Below are positions 6,618 through 28,357 of a DNA stretch of 33,662 nucleotides, piece by piece. Source of the DNA: Cochliopodium minus (Eukaryota; Discosea; Himatismenida; Cochliopodiidae); the NCBI GenBank assembly GCA_024220525.1, contig JAMYWO010000084.1:1-33662 (forward strand), written 5' to 3'. The position numbers were made by a program, and so were the translations under genes. The number at the start of each line of letters is the position of its first letter. The stretch's first letter is position 1. The notes below the pieces were generated by a model, which worked only from the letters and a program-made list of their open reading frames with translations, was not told the DNA's origin and searched no databases.

Positions 6618-7493
6618 ATGACCAAACTTAAGTTGATTCTCTGTCTGCTAATTATTTATTTAATTCCTGCAAATGCAATAGATAAATGTGCTCCCGATTC
6701 CCCATATGAATTTCCATTCAAAGTAAAATCAATATTTGAATAAAAGATCAATGAAAATTTTTTTTGAGAATAATATAAAGTATATATACCTTATAAATTG
6801 GATCAATTTTTATCTCTTCACATAGATACAATATCATAATGAGATCCATTATCAACATCTCATTTGTATATGTTGATCCTTTATTGATCATTTTTACCAA
6901 AATAAAACAAATGAATTAAATTTATGATCAATTATCTAAATATTTAATTGATTTATTCTCCACATCTTTTCAATCAAAATATATATTAATAATATTTGTT
7001 AATTAGTTTTATTTCTTAGCCAAAAGAAGAATTACCTGAATGCAAAGAATATCAAGATTATTCTTGTTGTAGCAAAAAAGATGCAGAAGCCATAGGAAAA
7101 ACCATCAATGAATTGATGAGAAAAGATTGTCAAAGTTGCTATACATTGGTGAGAGAATGGAAATGCGCAGAATGTTCACCAAATGCAGGAAAATATCATG
7201 TGGGACAACATTCAAAAATAAAATTGTGTGAAGATTATTGTCATGCAGTATATCATTTCTGCAGTGATATCCCTTTTGATTTGGGACAAAAAGATGAAGA
7301 AAGAGTATTCTACTTGAACAAAGGATTTTCATCTGCAGAAGAATGGTGCAGAGATAAAATAGGGAAAGAACCAAACTGTTATAAAGGTACCATCCCCACT
7401 GAAAAAGATACAAGTTGCATTTGCCCAAATCAAAACTGTCATATGGGAATCAATGAACTTGAACTTTGGGATGATGAAAACTTGGAACTTTGA
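6618..7493 (+). CDS. secreted folate-receptor-like Cys-rich protein
   Basis: Two exons, 6618-6722 and 7020-7493, give 192 residues. The N-terminus MTKLKLILCLLIIYLIPANA is a clear signal peptide. The mature part is Cys-rich with the layout of the folate/riboflavin receptor domain: CKEYQDYSCC, then CQSCYTLVREWKCAECSP, then LCEDYCHAVYHFC, then AEEWCRDKIG and a final CICPNQNC. Family members bind folates or riboflavin, usually at the cell surface, through a disulfide-braced fold. No C-terminal hydrophobic GPI signal or membrane segment is seen, so it is probably secreted. Ligand residues cannot be judged by eye, so the binding role is inference. It is shorter than vertebrate folate receptors. The 297-nt intron carries a copy of the MITE-like element. 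Confidence 0.75.
6798..6879 (+). mobile_element. short MITE-like element, copy 2
   Basis: This lies in the intron of the folate-receptor-like gene and is in inverted orientation relative to copy 1 at 3660-3759. It starts TTGGATCAATTTTTAT and ends near TTGTATATGTTGATCC. It is shorter than copy 1 through small internal gaps, and its right terminal repeat is degraded. Confidence 0.4.
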
Positions 7494-9243: not shown

Positions 9244-12200
9244 TCAGAAGAAATATTGGTCTGATTTGTAAAAAGAATTTATCAAGGTTGAAGAAGAGTT
9301 TAGACGATCTAAACGGTGCAAAAGATATGAAACATCCTTGAATTCCTCTCCCTCTGATCTATCCTGATAAACTGTTTTTAACTTATCCAAAATGGCAGCA
9401 GAGTTTTTATAAACGAAGAAAGGGATATAAGAATTGATATCTTCAAGATCAATGGATGATTCTTCTGTACTATCAGATCCTTTTCTAAATTTTTTGATAC
9501 CTTATTTTTAAAAAAATTTTAGAACAAAAATCATTAAACCACAAAAAATAAAATAAAAATTAATAAAAAAAATAAAAAAAATCCAAAAAAAAAGATTATT
9601 ACCTTGATGTGAACCCTTTTTGTGGAAGATTTTACTTTCGAGAGAATTGACTTTTTTCTTTTTATTATTGCTTTTCATCTTGAGAATGTATTCTTCACTT
9701 TTGTTTTTGAACTTTAGAAAGTCAAGGTTGGTACGGATGTTTTTAGTCTCTTCTGAAATTTTGTTAGTGGGTGATCTTGGGGTTGTTTTCTCCACATTCA
9801 CACGAAATTCACTTTTTATTTTTGCTTCGTGAAATAACTGTATGTTGGTGAACATTTCTACTGTTTTGTCTATTGAAAAGTAAAACAATAAAAATAAAAA
9901 TAAAAATAAAAATAAAAATAAATTAAAAAAATAAAAAATATAAAAATTTTTGAATTGAAAATAAAAAGTTACATTAAAATTTTAATATATAAAATATGAT
10001 TAAATAAAATAAAGATATTACTCAAATAATTTTTCTTGGTGTACTCCTCATAAAACTCGTTGAAAAGTGTGATTTGTATGTTTTCGTAGTCTTCTTTCTC
10101 CTGCAGATTTTCTCCTTCTTCCAAGTCTTCGTTTTTCTCCATAGTAACTTGATTAACCAAACACTGTAATACCTTTGAAATGACTAGAGAAGCTTTAAAA
10201 AAAAAATTGTTAATTTTTATTTTTTTAATTTTATTTTTATTTTATCTTATTTTTTTTTGATATTTTTTTATTTTTATTTTTATTTTTTATTTTTATTTTT
10301 ATTTTTATTTTTTATTACCTCTTTTCACTTTTTCGTTTTGCAAGCTTGTGCAAGAGGAGATGAAGGATGGATGGAAAAATCTGAGGAAAAACAATGACAC
10401 AAATGGTCTGGACTCAGGAAACACTTTCACGCATTCTTTGGTGACCACATCCAAAATTTTGCAAAATATGCTTGAAAAAAAATACAAATAAAAAAAAAAA
10501 AAAATATATATATATAAAAGATTAAAAATAATTAAAAATAATCAAAATAAATATAAAAATTAGAAAATTTTTTTACTCTGGCAGCATTGTCATGTATTTT
10601 TCTATGTTGTCCAGGATTTCTTTGCATAAAAGAATAATGTTGGAGACATTGGATCGCAAGAAAAAATAGTGGAGTATCTTGTCAGGGTTTACCTAATAAA
10701 TAAAGAATAAAAATAAAAACTGTTAAAATCAATAAAAAATAACAAATAAAAAAAAAATAAAAAAATAAAAAAATAAAAAAAAATAAAAAAAAAATAAAAA
10801 AAATAAAATAAAAAGAAAAATAAGAATAGTACTTCGAATGCTTCTGGCAAGAGAATTAATTTCTCAAGAGCCTTCCCCATGATGATGTTTAGATATTCTT
10901 CTCCGTTCATAGTGAATATGGTTCGAATCAACCAGGTATCCACCTCATCATCCCTGTAAAGAGTATTTTCCGATTCTTTATTTTTGTTTATTTATTTTTT
11001 TAATGATTTTTTTTATTTTTTATTTTTTTAATATTTTTTCTTTTTTTTTACGTGTTGTACTAAGTCTTTCTTCACAGAGTTTTGTCAAAAAGTTTTTTAG
11101 TCCCTCTTCTCCGAGTATGTTAATGAACTTCTTGAGTTCGTTTTGGTCAGAGCGATCTCCAAAACCGACCTGGAAACAAAAAAAAAATTATAATTTAAAT
11201 TATATTTTATATTAAAATTTAATAAATAATTCTAATTCATTTTTTTTTTTATTTATTTTCCACAAAATTGTTGTGTTACCTCAACAACAAAAATGATCCA
11301 CTTTTTAAAGTTTGTACTATGAACTCTTGATCTTGTTTTTTGTTCTCGAATGCCAGATATTCTTTTTCTTCAATGAAAATCATTGTTTCATCATCCTCAA
11401 GATTTGGGTTGGAGTTCTTGAAAAAGATCATGTCAGAATCTTTGAGGGATTTCAGATTTTCCAATGCTATTTCTTTGTTTTCAATATTGTATTTTTTGAT
11501 GAACCAATCACAAAATTCTTTCACTTTAATCAAAAGAAAATGTCAGATTTATAAGTATCAATTGAGTATATTTAGGAGGTATAAATAAAATATCTTCAAC
11601 ATAAAAATGAAATTTTATTGATTTTGATGATTACCATTGAAGCAATATGCTAAACCATCTTTTTTCTTCAAAAATGTGTCATCTTTAATGTTGCTGAGCA
11701 AATCCTATTTTGAAATTATTATTTTAATTTAATCCCGCGAAGAAAATAAAAAAAAATATTATTTTAAAACATCAAAATAATTAACCAATTTGGTCTGTGC
11801 ATGGAAGAATTAAAAAAAAAAGGAAATGAATAATAATCGGGGAAAATAATATTTATATTTACACTGAATATCCTATGGTCACTGCTAGTGATTCTATTGG
11901 AGGAATTTCATCACCCCAAACTATTTTTTGGGTTCGTCCTGAATTGAGAGCACTTTCTTCAGAAGGAAAGATGATCACATCTTTTTGAATCGCAATAAAG
12001 AAGAGAACGGGCTATTTAAAGAGGAACATTAAACGAAAATCAATTAGATAAAGAAAAAATTAAAATTTTTTACCCTATTTTTATTTGCTTTTTCATGGAT
12101 TGGAAAACAAACAAAGTCGTTCCAAAAAACAGATGAATCTTTCCTATAATTTAATAACTCAACATGGCACTATATATTAAAGAAAATAAAGTAAAGAGTC

Positions 12201-12732
12201 AAAAAAATAATAATATAGAAAATTTACAGGTATTCCTTTTTTAAACATTCCCTCATTTTAAGAACCACATCCTATATTTGATTTTAGAAAAAATAAGTAA
12301 TTAAGCTTAATTAATATTTTTTTTCCCGTTCACCTTGTCAGAATTTTTTCCCTGCAAAAACCTGCAATTTTTCCCAAGAATATCATTCTCAGAGTATCCC
12401 GTCATCGTGGTGAACTTTTAAAAATTTTTATTAATCTTAATTTAATTTATCTTATATTAAGTTCAAATTACTTTCTTGTTTTGCATAATGATAGGACAAT
12501 CAGGTAGTCCATTATGGCAAATAAGCATTGACTCGTGTATCGATTGGATGAATTTGTATTCTATAATTGAAAAAAGTTATTTCATATCACAAATACAATT
12601 AAATCTACCTTTCACAATCAGTTTTTGGATTGATTTGAGCTTTTTTTGTGTTAATTTAAAATCAGTAGCTTTCCATACTTGATTGAACACTTCTGCTTGT
12701 TCTTGTAAATAAATATCGTTATAGTTTCCCAT
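9244..12732 (-). CDS. LOV - DEP - RasGAP signalling protein
   Basis: Exons: 12609-12732, 12472-12560, 12334-12414, 12228-12271, 12074-12169, 11865-12011, 11786-11794 (9 nt, tentative), 11635-11704, 11318-11523, 11052-11169, 10833-10975, 10577-10692, 10319-10470, 10022-10192, 9603-9869, 9244-9500; about 696 residues. LOV domain: [15 protein letters not shown], the flavin-cysteine motif [22 protein letters not shown] and FFIAIQKDV, so the photoactive Cys, both flavin Asn and the Gln are present. DEP domain: [19 protein letters not shown] onward. Ras[11 protein letters not shown] holds the arginine-finger position, then [22 protein letters not shown] (FLR motif) and [11 protein letters not shown]. 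The C-terminal 150 residues are Lys-rich. Exon 4 is one base short of keeping frame at an A6 run (12237-12242), a likely sequence error. RasGAPs speed GTP hydrolysis by Ras; light control is inference. Confidence 0.82.
9891..9925. repeat. AATAAA-type microsatellite in intron
   Basis: About six copies of a 6-bp AAATAA/TAAAAA unit in the intron between the fourteenth and fifteenth exons of the LOV-RasGAP gene. Similar A/T microsatellites sit in its neighbouring introns at about 10261-10316 and 10731-10816. Confidence 0.7.
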
Positions 12733-18723: not shown

Positions 18724-21716
18724 TGGACGTTATTAAAGAATTGAAAAAACCTATCGATAGAAATCCTTCCAATATCAATGTCCAAAAGCTCATCAAGACC
18801 AAAATTGTTTGTACTTTAGGACCTGCTTCTAATTCGGTACTTGACAAAATTTATAATTAAAGGATTTTCATTGCCTGATTTATTTATAGGAAGTGATGTT
18901 GAGGAAAATGATAACTGAAGGTAAATAAATGCTTTCTATGTTTATAAACAAATGATCTTATATTTTTTATTGAAGGAATGGATGTTTGCAGGTAAAAAAA
19001 ATTAAATGAAATTTTCACCAAATATTTATATGAAATTTCTCTTAAAAACCCAAAATCTTATCTTAATCTCAAGACTCAACTTTTCACATGGAGATCATAA
19101 AGATCACATAAAAACATTTGAATTGGGTGAGCTAAATGGAAATATAAATATTTTGAAATGTTCATTTTTTTTATTAAAGTGAGGAAATTATCAAAGGAAT
19201 TCGACCACCAAGTAAGAACAAAGTTCACTCAAAAATTTATATTTCTTTGTAACATCCTTTTTTTTCTTAGGTATCCATTTTGTGTGACGTACAAGGACCA
19301 AAGATCAGAGTGGGAAGAGTAATCAAATTTTTTAAATCAAAATTTTTTTTAATTTAATTTTTTTTAATTTGATTTTTTTTTTCACATTTTTTTTCACATT
19401 TTTTTTTTTAATTTTTTTTTTTAAAAGATTGAGAAAAAATTTACATTGGTTGTCGGAGACAAGGTAAATATTACTGGGGAAAAAATTATAGGAAACAGAG
19501 ACAGATTCCAAATTAAATATCCTAATCTCATTGGAGACCTCAAGCAGGATGACAGCATCTTCATCAACGATGGAATCATTAGATTGAGAGTTCTTTCTAA
19601 GGACACTACTGATTTGCAGTGTGTCGTGGAAGCTGGAGGGGATGTTTCCGATCACAAAGGTAATTTTTTTTTTTTTTTTTTTGTAAAAATTGAAATTCAA
19701 TATTTTTTTTGATTAAAATTATAAAGTTAATATTTTTAAAATATTTTCTTTCCAAATTTTATTTTTATTTATTTATATTATTATTTTTTATTTTTATTTT
19801 TTATTTTAATAAATTTTTTGATTTTTTGCATATTTGTACTTCATTTTTTATTTTTGATTTTACAATTAATTATTTTTCATTCTATAGACTTATTTTCATT
19901 TTGTATTTTACAATTAATTATTTTTCATTATTTATTGAATTTATTTTTAATTTTTTTTTTTTAAAAAAAAAAAAAGGATGTAATATTCCAAGTGGAAATT
20001 TGTCAGTGGACATCGTCACAGAAAAAGACAGAGAAGACTTGGAATTAATAGCAAAGTTAGATCCTGAATACGTCGCTCTTTCCTTCGTAGGATCTGGAAA
20101 GGACATAATTCAAGTGAGAGATTTGTTGAGGGAGTTTGGCAACAGCGATATCAAAATTTGCTCCAAAATAGAAAGGCCTGTCGCTTTGGATAACATTGAA
20201 GAGATTGTTCAACAAAGTGATTGTGTGATGGTTGCAAGAGGAGATTTGGTATCATTTTAGAAATTTATTTTTAAAAATACATTTTAAAAGATTTTTTTTT
20301 TTTTATTTTTTTTTTTTTAAAAATTCATTTTAAAAGATTTTATTTTTTATTTTTATTTCTTTTTTTTTCTTATTTTTATTTTTTATTGTTTTTATTTTTT
20401 ATTTTTTTATTTTCATTAATTTTATGATTATTTTATTGGCTATTTTTCTGTTAAAAATATAATATTTTATTTTTTATTTTATTTTTGATTAATTTTATTT
20501 AATTTTTGATTATTTTTATTATTTCATATTTTATTTTCTTTAATTTTATGATTATTTATTTCTGATAATTTTTTTTCTTAGGGGGTAGAGTGTGATATTT
20601 GGACCATTCCAAAACACCAAAAAACAATCATCAAATTATGTAACGAATACAGTAAACCTGTGATAGTCGCAACTCAAATGTTAGAATCCATGGTCAAAAA
20701 AAAAAAAATATTTTAGATTTTATAATATTATAATATATTTTTTTTTTTTTTTTATTTTTTATCAATTATTTTAGAAAATTTTCATTTTGTTGAATTTTTT
20801 TTCATTATTTTTTTTATTGTAATTTATTTTTGTTTTTTTGATATTTACTCATTACTTTTATCTTCTTTTTTACCAATGAAACTAACTTTTTTTTTTTAAA
20901 AAAAGACCAACAATGTAATTCCCACAAGAGCAGAAGTCACAGATGTGTACCAAAGTGTGATAGACGGGACAGATTGCGTGATGTTGTCAGGAGAATCTTC
21001 TGTTGGAAAATACCCCGATGGTACCGTCAGAATGATGGACCGTATTGTTTCTACCGCTGAACAAAACTTGGATAACAGAAACTTTGAAAAGTTATTGGGT
21101 CCTCCAAAGAACTTTGTCGAGACCATGTAAGTTTGTTTACAATTTTTTTTTTTTTTTATTTTTCTGTTTTTCGAAAATATTTTAATAAATTTTTAATTTT
21201 TTACATTTGTACTTCATTTTTTATTTTACATTGATACTTCATTTTTAATTTTTAATTTTACATTTTATTTTTTATTTTTTATTTTCAATTATTTAAAAAC
21301 CCAATTTTAAATTTTTTTTAATTTTTTTCTTGTTTAATTTTAGGGCTCATTCTGTGGTCAACATCACCAAAGATCTTGTTCTCAAAAACTTAAGAGGAAA
21401 AATCATCAGCATCTCTGACGAGACCTACCCCGCAAGAATCGTCGCCAAGTACAGACCACAACTCGATCACATCTTCTTCACTTCTAGTCTAAGAGCTGCA
21501 AGAGAAGCTAACTTTCTTTGGGGTGTGAGATCTGTTTATGTCGAGAAGATTGTCGAGATTGACTTGGAATCCATGATATCTTCTGTTGTCAAGGAGGGTC
21601 ACAATGATCGTTTGTTGAACATCGATGAGTACATTGTCGTTTTTTGCCATTCCAAAAGGTTCAGTGGTGCTACTGTTGGTCTTTATTCTGTCAAATCTTT
21701 TTTGGATGATGTTTAA
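18723..21716 (+). CDS. pyruvate kinase
   Basis: Eleven exons: 18723-18836, 18890-18920, 18976-18991, 19074-19126, 19180-19211, 19271-19318, 19428-19659, 19977-20248, 20582-20692, 20906-21126, 21344-21716; 500 residues, normal for the family. It transfers phosphate from phosphoenolpyruvate to ADP, the last step of glycolysis, in the cytosol. Visible landmarks are [30 protein letters not shown], the active-site [19 protein letters not shown] (metal ligand and substrate loop), VATQMLESM and [17 protein letters not shown]. The start is fixed by an A15 run and by the family N-terminus. The residue after GP is Lys (GPKIR) where K+-dependent enzymes have Glu, which suggests K+-independent activity. 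Introns are T-rich and up to 333 nt. One donor (after 20692) reads GTCAAA, which is unusual. Confidence 0.97.
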
Positions 21717-21841: not shown

Positions 21842-23942
21842 TTAATTTTCATTTGTTTGGATGACAAGATCATCTTTTTCTGATCTCTTCCTTATATATG
21901 AAATGAGTTTGTCAGAGAAAGACATTAATAAAAACCCAAGTACAATTACAAAAATACCAATAATGCCCAAATAATTGATGACTTCATGGTGAATAACATA
22001 ATCAGCCAAAATAGAAGCTAATCAAAGAAAAAATAAAAGAAAAGAAAGAAAATTGAAAAATAAAAGATTGTACTTGGTATCGTTAACAGTGTACAAACAG
22101 AAACATACAAAGGGCTCGAGAAAGTGATAGAAATAAGTAAAAAAGCGTTGAAAATAGAGTCCAAGCAAGCAGTAAGAAGGATGACTTTCCAGGCGTCAGG
22201 TGGAGGCCAAACGAAAACCTCTAACTTTGTAATGTTGGCAATGGGGATACCGACCCAAAAGACAAGAAGTGTGTAGACACCAATGATACCTATGAACAAC
22301 AAAGACTCGACAACTTCATCCAAAACCTCATTTTTTAAATCGGCTGGTGTTCTTTTTTTGTGGTGGTCAGAGTTGTTGTTATTCATATTTTCCTTTTAAA
22401 AAGAAATTTGTAAGAAATATTAAAGAAAATTCTTTTTGTTAGGAATTGTATAAAAAATAAAAAATTTTTTTATAATTATTGTGACTTAGATTAAAAATTG
22501 TTAAAAAAAAAAACTAGGATCACATACATTATAAATGTAATCAACATCCTCCTCATTGACACTTTTGTTGCCCCCTGAAGAATTATTGGCATAGTAATCG
22601 TTATTCTCGATCATCTGATCAGTGTCAGTCAAAGCCTGGTAGTTCTCAGTGCCACCATGATCCCCCTTCCCATCATGATGATCACCCTCAACCAATTTTT
22701 TATACAAGACTTCATACAAAGAATAAGTGACAACTGACAAAACAACAAAGAAATAACCCCAGTCATTTATTTTTATCGAAGCAGTGTTCGGTGAAGAAGA
22801 TGAGGCTATGAATGATGATACTATTGATGAAACATCTATTGCCGACTTTGTTTGCCTTTCGTGGGAGAAGGAGACCATCACCACCCCTCCGACGCAGATC
22901 ATCACTGAGATTATTTTCATCACGGTTACTTTTTCTTTGAGGAAAAATACCGAGAAGAAGAAGACGACCGCACACTGAGAATTATAAATTGCGGTATTTG
23001 CCGAAACTATTAATAAACATTTTAATTAAATTTAATAATTTTTAAATTTTTTTAATAATTTTTAAATTTTTTTAATAATTTTTAAATTTTTTTAATAATT
23101 TTTAAATTTTTTTAATAATTTTTTATTTTTTGTTTTTTATTGATTAATTCCAAATTTTTAAAAACTTTTCTTTATTTTGTTAATTTTTTTAGTTTAAATT
23201 TTTTTTACCTGTAATCATGGGAATAGAAATATACCAAAATAGCACACAGGCCAAGGATAAAACTGACAAGAGAAACCCTGACCAAAGCAACTTGATGTAA
23301 TATTTTTTTTGCTTATTCCAAGTGTACCTCTCTCTGTTATTAAAGTATTGAATTGTTCTGAAAATCACTCCCACAATAAAAAGTACTGTGTATCCACTGT
23401 GTACAACATAACTCTGAACAACTCTACCATTAAAATTTTTTTTTGTGAAAAAAAAAAAAAAATTCTTACAGTGAAATAAGGCTATTTTCGAATTTTAAAT
23501 TAAATAATGAAAAAAAATAAAAAAAATCTTTTACTTTGTTGTAACTTGTTTTTTGAAGAATTTCAGCCATGATTACCCATGATGCTACCTTAATTATTTA
23601 AGTTTTTGAAATGTTAATGTTGAACTAAATATCAGCTTTATTTGATTTTAAATATTTTTTTTAAATTTCCTGAAAATTAAGGAAAAACAATAGGTCATAT
23701 ATGATGTTTATTGTCATAGGATTAAATTAGTGTTTAGAATAGATGATTGATAATCAAGTGTAATTTTGATCAGTGCTAGGAAAAATTTTAATTCCCTTCG
23801 ACTAATTGTGCCCAATGAAAAAAAATTGGTGTTTACCATACAGATGATGGCCAAAGTAGCAACCTAAAATGAATATGAAAAATAATGATACAATATAAAA
23901 TAAGAATTATGGGATGTTTACTGTTAGTTTTAAGTTTTTCAT
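21842..23942 (-). CDS. SLC35F-like drug/metabolite transporter
   Basis: Eight exons: 23922-23942, 23837-23863, 23535-23588, 23470-23481 (12 nt), 23209-23413, 22528-23006, 22074-22392, 21842-22017; 430 residues, phases all agree. It is a multi-spanning membrane protein of the drug/metabolite transporter clan. Landmarks typical of SLC35F members are VASWVIMAEILQKTSYNKPYF-TSY before the first large block, VSANTAIYNSQCAVVFFFS in the middle, the KEKVTVMKIISVMICVGGVV helix and a second half ending in LGIIGIFVIVLGFLLMSF. A polar, Asp/His/Asn-rich loop of about 70 residues (GDHHDGKGDHGG) divides the two halves. SLC35F3/F4 relatives carry thiamine in animals; the substrate here is unknown. It is tail-to-tail with pyruvate kinase, 125 bp apart. 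Confidence 0.87.
23031..23120. repeat. 20-bp tandem repeat in intron
   Basis: About four and a half near-perfect copies of TTTAAATTTTTTTAATAATT lie in the intron between exons 5 and 6 of the SLC35F-like gene. It is a simple minisatellite and could vary in copy number between strains. Confidence 0.85.
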
Positions 23943-24896: not shown

Positions 24897-26487
24897 TCAT
24901 CTTACAGCAAGTCTCAGTATCAACAAAATAGTCATAACAACAATTAAAACACACAACAACAACATGCAAGAACGAATTTTGGAAGTTCTGCTATTTTGCT
25001 CAGCTTTTACCAACTCTTCGACACCCTTGTCAACATGGACGACAGCTTGTTCAATATTATAATCAATACGATCAAGAATAGTACCTTTATTTGTATGAAA
25101 AAAGTTAATTGGTATTTGTTTTTAATCAAAAGTTAAGAAGAAATTTATCAAAATAAGTAATTTATCCAAAAATGAAAATTATTCTTCGAACAAATCTTTT
25201 AAAAAATGATTGATTTTTTTATTTGGGAAGAAAATATAAAACATTCATTTCATGAATTTTTTTTTTTAAAGACAACTTAAATTACTGCAGTAGAAAAATT
25301 TTAGTCTATCAAAAATTGATCATAATAATGATCACATGAAATTGTCTTTTAACAATTTATTGTAATGATTAACTCTTTTTAGTATTTTTGTTAATGAAAT
25401 GATGTTTTTTTAATTCATTTACCTTGATCAACAACGAGAATGGCAAGATCATTGAAAATGCTGGCCAACTCAGTGATGCTCTTCGCAACCGCCCTCAACT
25501 CCTTATCTCTCTCACGAACTTGATCATAATTATCCTGAGCCCATAACAACTGATCTTGATTGAAACCATTATCTACAAACTTGGAGTCGTTTAGAGAAGA
25601 AGGAGTGTTTTCATCCACTTCTAGGGATGACTTTCCTTTCTTTCTTTTCCTCTCTAATTCTCTTAAGTAGCTTTCTTGTGATTGTCTGAAATCGTTGGAG
25701 AGATCTTGCAGGATTTTCGCGAGCGCATGCTTTAAATTATCCCTCATTTTAATTTCTTTGTCATCTAAGTTCACGTTTTGTGCGATCCCTTGCACTTTTT
25801 TTCTACTTTTTTGGAATAACTATACATTCGAAAGAAATTATTATCAAATCAGCGGAATATCAAAATTTAAAATAAGATGATTCAATATATTGCTCCATGA
25901 ACATATATTTCTGATAATAAAATCAAATTTCATTCAAAAATTTAAATTAAAAAGAATAATTTTCAAATAAAATGAAGTTTAAATTCTGGAGAGAAATTAA
26001 ATATGTTCTGAAAAAGGATGGGAGTTTTTTTTTACATTAGTTATAACTCCAGTAATTATTTCGATGTTATTCTCTTCTTCATCATCTTCGAATTGAACTT
26101 TCAAATGTTTTGCATGGAGATCATTTAAAATCAACACTAAAATTTAATAGGAAGTTTATATTTTTAAACACAAATTAGAATCTATATAATCGAATCTTGA
26201 TAGAGTCTATGAAGTTTGATCAATTTAAAATTTGTCTTACTTTTTCTTTTAATATCAGCAATATCCAATTTTATCTCTTCAATAATGCCCATCCACATAG
26301 GTCTCTGCCCTTTAACTCCAAGCTCAATCTCATCACCATCTGAGCCCAGCAATTTCTCATTCTCCACATTTTTGAAACCATCATCCTTCATCACATTCAT
26401 CTGTTTTCTATATCTTGTTCTTAATTCCTTAAATTTGTCAAATCTGGATCTACATTTGACATTGATCGGTTGGGGTTTTTGAATCAT
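24897..26487 (-). CDS. syntaxin-16/Tlg2-like Qa-SNARE, copy B
   Basis: Four exons, 26241-26487, 26036-26136, 25423-25819 and 24897-25084, give 310 residues. The layout is syntaxin-16/Tlg2 type: a short N-terminal part with RSRFDKFKELRTRYRK, a helical Habc region (MWMGIIEEIKLDIADIK), a Lys-rich linker, then GFNQDQLLWAQ and the SNARE motif (RERDKELRAVAKSITELASI onward, to VVDQGTILDRIDYNIEQ). The zero-layer Gln is the one in DQGT, coded at the end of exon 3. A C-terminal membrane anchor follows (LLLCVLIVVMTILLILRL). Tlg2/syntaxin-16 proteins drive fusion of endosome-derived vesicles with the trans-Golgi. A paralogue with the same exon structure lies just upstream; 78 bp separate the two coding regions. 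Confidence 0.93.
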
Positions 26488-26565
26488 TTTTCTCACAAAT
26501 AAATATTAAAGAAGAATCAATTTTTTTTATTTTTTATTTATAATTTCTCTTTAAAAATTTTTTAA

Positions 26566-28357
26566 TTATTTGGAGGCAAGCCTTATGATGAACAAAATGG
26601 CCATAATGACGATCAAAACACACATAAGCAACAAACAAGAGCGAATCTTGGATGTTTTGCTGTTTTCTTCTGCTTGTTCCAATTGTTCAACTCCCTTGTC
26701 AACATGGACGACAGCTTGTTCAATATTATAATCAATACGATCAAGAATAGTACCTTTATTTGTAAGAAAAAAGTTAATTTGCTTTTGTTTTTGATCAAAA
26801 GTTAAGAAGAAATTTATCAAAATGTAATATTTGATAACTTTAAAATGAATATTTTGTAGTTCTCATTTGACAAGCATTTTTTAAAATTTTAAAAAAAAAT
26901 TATAAATTAATAATATTCTTCAAAAATGAAATTTGATTTGTCAATAAAGTATTTGTTGGATCTTTAGTATTTTTGTTAAAGTAATGATGTTTTTTTAATT
27001 CATTTACCTTGATCAACAACGAGAATGGCAAGATCATTGAAAATGCTGGCCAACTCAGTGATGCTCTTCGCAACCGCTCTCAACTCCTTATCTCTTTCTC
27101 TGATCTGATCATAATTATCTTGAGCCCACACCATCTGCTCTTGATTAAATCCTTTATCGATATAATTAACATTATTGAGGGAAGAAGGGGAGTCATCATC
27201 CACATCCAAAGAGGATTTTCCCTTTTGCATTTTCATCTCTAATTCCCTCAAATAACTTTCTTGGGACTCCCTGAAATTGGTAGAGAGATCTTGGAGGATC
27301 TTCGCGAGGGCATGTTTCAGATTATCCCTCATCTTTATTTCTTTCCCATCCAAATTTGCATTTTGACCTATTATTTGCACTTTCTTTCTGCTTTTTTGGA
27401 ATAACTATTTGTTTCGCAAAAATATCAAATTTGAATATAAACATAATAATCAATTATTGGATCAATTATTATCTTAAAAAATTTATCAAATTGAGATTTG
27501 AGATTATGAAGTGATATTTTAATATTGCAAAAATCTTGAATTAATTGAAATTTCTTAGCATCAAATTTTTGACTTCTCATTTCAATTATAATTGTAAAAT
27601 CATTGTGATATCACAAAATCTTATTCATTAAAATGATTTTTTGGGATGATCATAATGCCCCAGAATAACAGATCTTCATTGGGAAAGTATATTTTATTTT
27701 TGTTTTTACTTTATAAAAACTTATTTATTTTGATCAATTTCAAACGAAAAGGAATATATTTGAAAACATTCCAAAAAATTTGCCATTCATATTTCGGTTT
27801 AATGTTCATTCAAATAAGAAAAAGATTTTTTTCATTTCAAATAAAATCATAAATTAAAAAGAAAAAAAATTTTGTGGGTTTTTTACGTTTGTGATCATCC
27901 CAGTCAATATTTCAATACCATTCTCTGCTTCATCATCCACCTCAAATTGAACCTTGAGATGTTGGGCATGTAAATTATTGAGTGTTTTCACTATTTATTT
28001 AAAAAAATCCTAGTTAATAAAATTATTTCCTTTTTATAAAATGTTAATAATGATTTTATGGATCGATATTAAGTAGATATTACTTTTGGATTGTATTTCA
28101 ACAACATCTATTTTTATTTCTTCAATTATTCCCATCCACAAAGGTCTTTCACCACCCATTTCATCCAATTTTTCGAGATCTACTGTCAATAGCTTTTGTT
28201 TATCTTTTTTGGATTTTTTATTGGATTGGTGTTCATCATTCATCATATCACCATTTAAATTATTATTTTGTTTTCTATACATAGTTCTCAACTCTGAGAA
28301 TTTTTGAAATCGGGATCTATATGGAATCCTAAACGTATTAGTTGATATATGACTCAT
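26566..28357 (-). CDS. syntaxin-16/Tlg2-like Qa-SNARE, copy A
   Basis: Four exons, 28084-28357, 27887-27990, 27008-27404 and 26566-26753, give 320 residues. Exons 3 and 4 have exactly the same lengths as in copy B (397 and 188 nt) and the same phases, so the pair is a tandem duplication. Features: MSHISTNTFRIPYRSRFQKF at the N-terminus, a Lys-rich insert (NKKSKKDKQK) absent from copy B, PLWMGIIEEIKIDVVEI, GFNQEQMVWAQ, the SNARE motif with DQGTILDRIDYNIEQ, and a tail anchor (LLLMCVLIVIMAILFIIRL). Exons 1-2 have diverged far more from copy B than the 3' end has. The two copies may serve different trafficking steps or life stages (inference). Confidence 0.93.

Follow-up and report, generated by a model that had tools for sequence, protein, structure and literature searches.

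The stretch of DNA analysed here, called the window, is the 33,662-nucleotide contig JAMYWO010000084.1 of Cochliopodium minus (assembly GCA_024220525.1). On its minus strand, a gene predicted to place a LOV domain ahead of a DEP-like stretch and a RasGAP domain runs from an ATG at 12732 to a TGA at 9244; both ends match those given in a preliminary description made from the letters of this DNA alone. In the genome that we searched (G000; 44.65 Mb in 598 contigs, the window being contig C84), the gene has several paralogues. As modelled from sequence, a LOV module stands before the DEP-like stretch and RasGAP in the window copy, C347 and C78, and before RasGEF_N and RasGEF in C413. The predicted proteins of this family mostly start with Met-Gly and carry a conserved stretch ahead of the LOV core.

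The window gene was modelled with 15 exons and a microexon at 11794-11786, which was spotted only by comparison with the paralogues. Its introns are all GT-AG, vary in length from 48 to 160 bases, and have a GC content of 4-20% compared to 34% in the exons (Table 1). In the protein model of the window copy, an X marks each of the two points at which the frame could no longer be traced.

For the LOV part of this model, the Pfam search gave PAS_9 at 67.8 bits (cut-off 27) with an E-value of 1.1e-18. The closest solved structures were LOV domains of phototropin (best PDB match 7.5e-24), and the flavin-pocket motifs aligned with them: the Cys of NCRFLQG, the Asn of LLNYRKD, the Asn of FWN, and the Gln of IQKD. 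All four residues are kept in C84, C347 and C413 as well as in all nine aligned sequences, and PAS_9 scored 64.4 bits in C347 and 53.2 bits in C413. For RasGAP (PF00616, cut-off 28.3), C347 scored 31.9 bits. A profile built from C347, the window copy and P0001 (a transcriptome product described below), with no outside RasGAP, matched neurofibromin with an E-value of 1.2e-8 (positions 2-155 of 156 aligned), followed by SynGAP and p120GAP. The arginine-finger motif TLYR (codon 10955-10953) and the motif FFLR are retained and align with TLFR and FLR, in an alignment taken from a profile that included one outside RasGAP row. Both the full flavin motif set and the RasGAP domain with its arginine-finger position and FLR motif, which the preliminary description had read from the window, were borne out by these matches.

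The stretch encoded by exons 7 and 8 is named DEP-like here and is not filed as DEP. Its profile, when compared with PDB, had DEPTOR DEP domains as the first matches (whole-sequence E-values from 0.0035 to 0.025, best single stretch 0.83); of the five weaker rows that followed, four were unrelated and one was a Rac exchanger 1 protein. The window model, C347 and P0001 had no SAM match at E<=1, so the window family is not of the LOV-SAM-RasGAP type.

P0001 is a Trinity product in EukProt of 474 amino acids, identical to the window gene at 438 of 473 aligned positions (93%). It is a single open reading frame (ORF) covering the second half of LOV, the DEP-like stretch and RasGAP, up to NKIS. Together with the in-frame paralogue C347, it upholds at the level of the family the earlier proposal of one gene joining the three parts, and the domain order LOV, DEP-like, RasGAP is real. 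Judged by eye, both the first residues of P0001 and the part near its end resemble the window copy, and the part in between resembles C78; P0001 might therefore combine two transcribed copies in one chimera.

Table 1. Exons and features of the window copy (C84)
Feature	Position	Strand	Evidence or remark
Whole LOV / DEP-like / RasGAP gene	9244..12732	-	ATG to TGA
Exon 1: N-terminal extension, MGNYNDIY..., Met-Gly start	12609..12732	-	M1 G2 invariant in 9/9 aligned N-termini
Exon 2: LOV core begins	12472..12560	-	Pfam and PDB profile matches
Exon 3: FTTMTGY..., adduct Cys codon 12366-12364	12334..12414	-	NCRFLQG motif
Exon 4: LOV; 44 nt vs 45 in C78/C347	12228..12271	-	Frame-breaking difference at A run 12242-12237
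Exon 5: LOV Asn residues	12074..12169	-	PDB alignment, 9-row alignment
Exon 6: LOV Gln and linker	11863..12011	-	Donor 11862 (GTAAAT); 11864 (GTGTAA) on microexon skipping
Microexon: 9 nt with GT donor, vs 10 nt in C347/C78	11786..11794	-	P0001 reads SVPNWDLL at the site
Exon 7: DEP-like stretch begins	11635..11704	-	Pfam DEP, DEPTOR profile match
Exon 8: DEP-like stretch and linker toward RasGAP	11280..11523	-	DEP 12.6 bits; DEPTOR DEP whole-sequence E 0.0035
Exon 9: RasGAP N-terminal part; 118 nt vs 128 in C347	11052..11169	-	Frame-breaking difference near 11156-11143
Exon 10: Arg-finger position 10955-10953	10833..10975	-	RasGAP profile alignment
Exon 11: RasGAP	10577..10692	-	RasGAP profile alignment
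Exon 12: RasGAP with FLR motif	10319..10470	-	RasGAP profile alignment
Exon 13: RasGAP and its C-terminal side	10022..10192	-	RasGAP profile alignment
Exon 14: C-terminal region, no named domain	9603..9869	-	Gene model, P0001 alignment
Exon 15: C-terminal region, conserved stretch, stop codon	9244..9500	-	Gene model, paralogue comparison

Paralogues and the condition of the window copy

The paralogue C347 is in frame throughout, with 13 exons, all GT-AG, and a product of 694 amino acids ended by a single terminal stop. The whole architecture is present, and LOV is linked to the DEP-like/RasGAP part with exact phases via the same microexon as in the window gene. Going by this model, C347 is the family's intact representative. 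The gene at C413 (L032 6105-785, minus strand) is also in frame; it has 11 exons, GT-AG introns, and encodes 1081 amino acids with one terminal stop. Its order is LOV, a coiled-coil-like region, RasGEF_N, and RasGEF. The RasGEF domain (PF00617) scored 132.7 bits (cut-off 23.1) over profile positions 1-180 of 181, and RasGEF_N (PF00618) scored 32.8 bits (cut-off 28.3).

The C78 copy is split into two halves that sit about 28 kb apart on a single scaffold, with their order swapped (L030 4648, L031 4447; at about 81148 and 110947). The N-terminal half runs into a run of N, while the C-terminal half is preceded by ordinary sequence; the split is either a misassembly or a rearrangement. A 3336-amino-acid 'frame' beside the N-terminal half was rejected, being the run of N itself. 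We do not favour C84 and C78 as alleles, given a synonymous divergence (dS) of 0.25 and blastn similarity that stops some 35 bases or less from the ends of the ORF. One more paralogue, C51 (L033 3251-4668, plus strand), has the DEP-like and RasGAP parts in a similar exon layout, and no LOV was found upstream of them. Because of this, LOV may have been placed ahead of a pre-existing DEP-like/RasGAP gene.

A PAS_9 profile search of the genome gave 15 matching stretches. A DNA pattern for NCRFLQ matched at six sites in the whole genome, namely in C84, C78, C347 and C413 as well as in C15 and C175, the last two of which spell NCSFFQ; the reversed pattern, used as a control, matched at one site. 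The count of four genes with NCRFLQ is a lower bound, as a motif split by an intron or spelled otherwise would escape. The preliminary description, right about the domain order, had noticed neither the gene family with its LOV-RasGEF sister gene nor the frame lesions of the window copy.

Compared to its relatives, the window copy has three frame-disrupting deletions, in exon 4, in the microexon, and in exon 9. The respective lengths are 45, 10 and 128 nt in C347 and 44, 9 (with a GT donor) and 118 nt in the window. C78 has the same lengths as C347 at exon 4 and the microexon; the exon 9 lesion was judged against C347 and P0001 only, with exon 9 of C78 absent from the assembly, where its N-terminal half runs into N. 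P0001 begins with MFKKGIPC, the frame predicted by the exon-4 lesion, and exon 4 in that frame opens with a stop. Skipping of the microexon via the GTGTAA donor preserves the frame. For exon 4 and exon 9, on the other hand, we found by eye no GT-AG choice that would repair the frame without loss of sequence. With no repairing splice at exon 4, conventional translation would therefore end soon past this exon, inside LOV. The earlier statement that splice phases join about 16 exons was right in the count (15 and the microexon) but not in the joining, since the frame is lost inside LOV, at exon 4, and at the microexon and exon 9; an intact reading frame of the window gene is not supported.

An in-frame U UUA AAA stands at window positions 12245-12239 (minus strand), exactly at the exon-4 frame break, and may be there by chance in this AT-rich DNA. 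Such a heptamer has the shape used for -1 ribosomal frameshifting.

Over 517 codons, the comparison of C84 with C78 gave dS of 0.25, nonsynonymous divergence (dN) of 0.024, and a ratio of 0.09, with exons 9, 10 and 12, the microexon, the ends of exons 4 and 8, and intron-split codons left out. When the amino-acid differences were polarised by C347 as the outgroup, with gap and X columns dropped, six fell on C84 and seven on C78, while 20 were unplaced. By these counts, purifying selection acted on the window copy until recently (dN/dS 0.09), and a long-standing pseudogene is not favoured.

On balance, we lean slightly towards the window copy being a recently inactivated paralogue that is transcribed but could yield only a truncated LOV fragment, with C347 (and perhaps C78) functional. 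Such a loss is compatible with the family-level explanation given below. Three frame-breaking deletions relative to the relatives point to it, and the start of P0001 fits the exon-4 deletion, so that the transcript product carries this lesion. Besides, the C347 and C413 models, with 24 exons, are without such breaks, which makes random assembly error at this density unlikely. However, the low dN/dS and the six versus seven polarised changes (20 unpolarised) argue against a long decay, and the RNA covers the exon-4 lesion only, with P0001 being C78-like or intact at the other two sites.

It is less likely, though it deserves weighing, that some or all of these frame breaks are assembly errors or reflect rare decoding or splicing, and that the gene here is still functional as a third copy. 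The strong purifying selection would fit this, as would the frameshift-like heptamer in frame at the exon-4 site, the frame-keeping GTGTAA donor with the microexon skipped, and an assembly that is imperfect, with a run of N in C78. Still, the exon-4 lesion occurs in the transcriptome product P0001, exons 4 and 9 are not rescued by GT-AG alternatives without sequence loss, as judged by eye, and neither the C347 nor the C413 model shows such a break. The lesions may be recent, or partly unreal, or passed by unusual decoding; we favour recent loss, and the window copy probably no longer yields a full-length protein.

Relatives elsewhere and the LOV tree

Three protein searches, each with the 8000 word-richest candidates scored, gave 38 of 38 rows, the best 120 of 295 rows, and the best 120 of 439 rows. 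Besides P0001, three proteins among the matches listed had both PAS_9 and RasGAP: P0054 (MMETSP1310, 745 amino acids), P0188 (a metagenome protein, source lgn, 646 amino acids), and P0189 (Planoprotostelium fungivorum, 673 amino acids, annotated as 'PAS/PAC sensor protein'). In all three, both domains are over the Pfam cut-off, with LOV first and RasGAP last. In P0188 and P0189, unlike the window family with its DEP-like stretch at this place, a SAM domain over the cut-off follows LOV. At E<=0.1, no SAM was found in P0054 and no DEP in any of the three.

The RasGAP domains of P0054, P0188 and P0189 barely align with that of C347 (BLASTP E-values of 0.002, 0.004 and 0.058), and their LOV-RasGAP fusion may be either independent of that in the window family or very old. 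The novelty claimed for the domain order in the preliminary description holds for the DEP-like form, which among the matches listed was met only here, with no wealth of proteins of the same order; the LOV-RasGAP fusion itself is not unique. A RasGEF accession was on no row among the matches listed.

For a LOV tree, 25 hand-picked rows were aligned over 119 columns; the tree is unrooted, with a midpoint root for drawing only. A group of 14 of the 25 rows split off at 99/96. Within it, C413, C347 and C84 form a local trio at 100/98, and P0054, P0188 and P0189 go together at 82/82; the group also holds PB1, SAM and other proteins. The phototropin, CAP-Gly and bacterial rows are on the opposite side. 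A Met-Gly start was observed in 11 of the 14 group rows and in none of the 11 other rows (Fisher p 1e-4, a descriptive value only, as the rows are related and hand-picked). In P0008 and P0009, a Met-Gly occurs among residues 1 to 14, and P0032 is fragment-like. The Cys motif was matched in 13 of the 14 group rows. P0054, P0188 and P0189 thus resemble the window family in the tree group, the Met-Gly start, and the placing of LOV first and RasGAP last.

N-myristoylation is favoured by a Ser or Thr at position 6, a rule that seven of the 11 Met-Gly starters follow; the window copy, C347, C413 and P0050 do not. A gene for N-myristoyltransferase is present in the genome.

Possible light control of Ras

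We propose, with a probability of about 0.6, that the window gene belongs to a Met-Gly-type LOV family whose local LOV modules are wired to Ras regulators of both signs and would put them under the control of light. By analogy with known LOV chemistry, FMN would sit in the LOV pocket and form an adduct with the Cys under blue light. This change would then pass through the flanking helices and the linker and alter the exposure or the membrane placing of the GAP or GEF, the placing being perhaps helped by N-myristoylation. Light would in this way lower (GAP) or raise (GEF) Ras-GTP at the membrane.

The presence of GAP and GEF on sister LOV modules suggests two-way control. A more specific version, which we put forward only tentatively, is a blue-light push-pull on Ras, where a duplicated LOV module would turn Ras off through a RasGAP and on through a RasGEF, most likely at the membrane, within a Met-Gly LOV group that swaps effectors. 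The same tentative version would make this group of photoreceptors one that is undescribed within the literature searched, with effector swapping across protists. If the push-pull is true, Ras-GTP would be set by light with no intervening receptor, G protein or second messenger.

Several observations weigh against the proposed light-controlled family. P0001 is without the first half of LOV, Cys included, and without the C-terminal end, so it covers LOV only by half; none of the matches listed was a transcript product closely resembling C347 or C413. The DEP domain named in the preliminary description was not confirmed as such: DEP (PF00610) scored 12.6 and 13.1 bits, under the curated cut-off of 32.7, and the DEPTOR match was weak. 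Pfam RasGAP (PF00616) was not reported at E<=1 for the window model, and P0001 with 24.7 bits was below the cut-off. AlphaFold models of P0001 with the nine-row alignment (pLDDT 44) and of the exon-8, DEP-like stretch (pLDDT 57) were discarded, as was a Foldseek search with the latter low-confidence model (0 matches at E<=0.001). In the LOV tree group, P0011 was unmatched by the Cys motif. Position 6 of the window family is D, D and V, poor for N-myristoylation, and C413 has Lys in place of the phototropin Arg that we take to hold the FMN phosphate.

The LOV part could also be a sensor of redox or flavin state, or a scaffold, and not a light switch, as some LOV domains do sense redox state. 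We consider this unlikely, with the adduct Cys, both Asn and the Gln kept in C84, C347, C413 and all nine aligned sequences. That LOV and the DEP-like/RasGAP part are two neighbouring genes wrongly joined is highly improbable and was rejected: the intron between exons 6 and 7 is indeed the longest of the 15-exon model (160 bases) and C51 has no LOV found upstream, but P0001 as a single ORF, from the second half of LOV through RasGAP, crosses the break suspected earlier between the exons at 11865 and 11704 and therefore is not from two genes, C347 joins the parts in exact phase via the microexon, and P0054, P0188 and P0189 also have PAS_9 and RasGAP in one protein.

Among known systems, phototropin differs from the window family in lying outside the Met-Gly tree group and in having a kinase as the effector. 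Fungal RGS-LOV photoreceptors have LOV beside a regulator that speeds GTP hydrolysis, as in LOV-RasGAP; they differ in that RGS acts on heterotrimeric G-alpha, while RasGAP acts on Ras. Engineered optogenetic tools for small GTPases, such as PA-Rac1 and light-recruited GEFs, are alike in the control by light but are man-made, whereas the fusion here is natural; PMC4469895 and PMC10363612 deal with the optogenetic control of small GTPases.

For Dictyostelium slugs, a passage of PMC2211301 names RasD and the RasGEFs GefE and GefL among the molecules of photosensory behaviour, and a passage of a 2025 paper states that the mechanisms or photoreceptors behind this behaviour still need clarifying (PMC12503944). 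Ras and RasGEFs are the theme shared with the LOV-Ras regulators; a sensor fused to a Ras regulator, as in the window family, is not mentioned in these passages. A natural protein with the sensor on the regulator would turn the still unexplained path from light to Ras in amoebae into a one-step reaction that can be tested. On natural LOV-RasGAP or LOV-RasGEF proteins, we found no paper by title or by the start of the abstract, in a search outside of which the largest LOV survey lies. LOV with a Ras regulator appears to be new among modular LOV receptors, with LOV-RasGAP fusions already in databases. If the proposed light control is true, these genes would be a natural source of optogenetic parts, a GAP for switching Ras off and a GEF for switching it on, whose LOV modules are sisters.

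Surroundings in the genome and the window

Ras regulators are expanded in the genome, with 69 stretches matching RasGAP and 168 matching RasGEF (a single gene contributes several), along with 46 DEP stretches. As for other photosensors, the FAD domain of photolyases and cryptochromes was not found in the genome, in a search that was positive in seven of 14 control genomes, and the rhodopsin search, without a match here or in any control genome, says nothing either way. One BLUF domain was observed (60.3 bits; C329:24500-34400, L044, about 4400-3839, minus strand) in a short-looking protein; LOV therefore may not be the only blue-light sensor of the organism. Downstream of the BLUF domain, and sharing its strand, comes an exon that encodes an RGS domain (46.6 bits). 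A single BLUF-RGS gene is not claimed, as there is a stop between the two.

Within the window, two tandem and clearly similar genes at 25415-28357 (minus strand) have exons that look syntaxin-like by eye (DNYDQVRERDKELRAVAKSITELASIFNDLAILVVDQGK); in the two exons scanned, no Pfam domain was above the cut-off. A Cys-rich exon at 7020-7493 (plus strand) matched the folate receptor family with 32.5 bits (cut-off 29.8). Pyruvate kinase exons are located at 19425-20260 (plus strand); the one compared with Pfam scored 36.2 bits for PK. An exon of an EamA-type transporter at 22501-23025 (minus strand) scored 33.1 bits.

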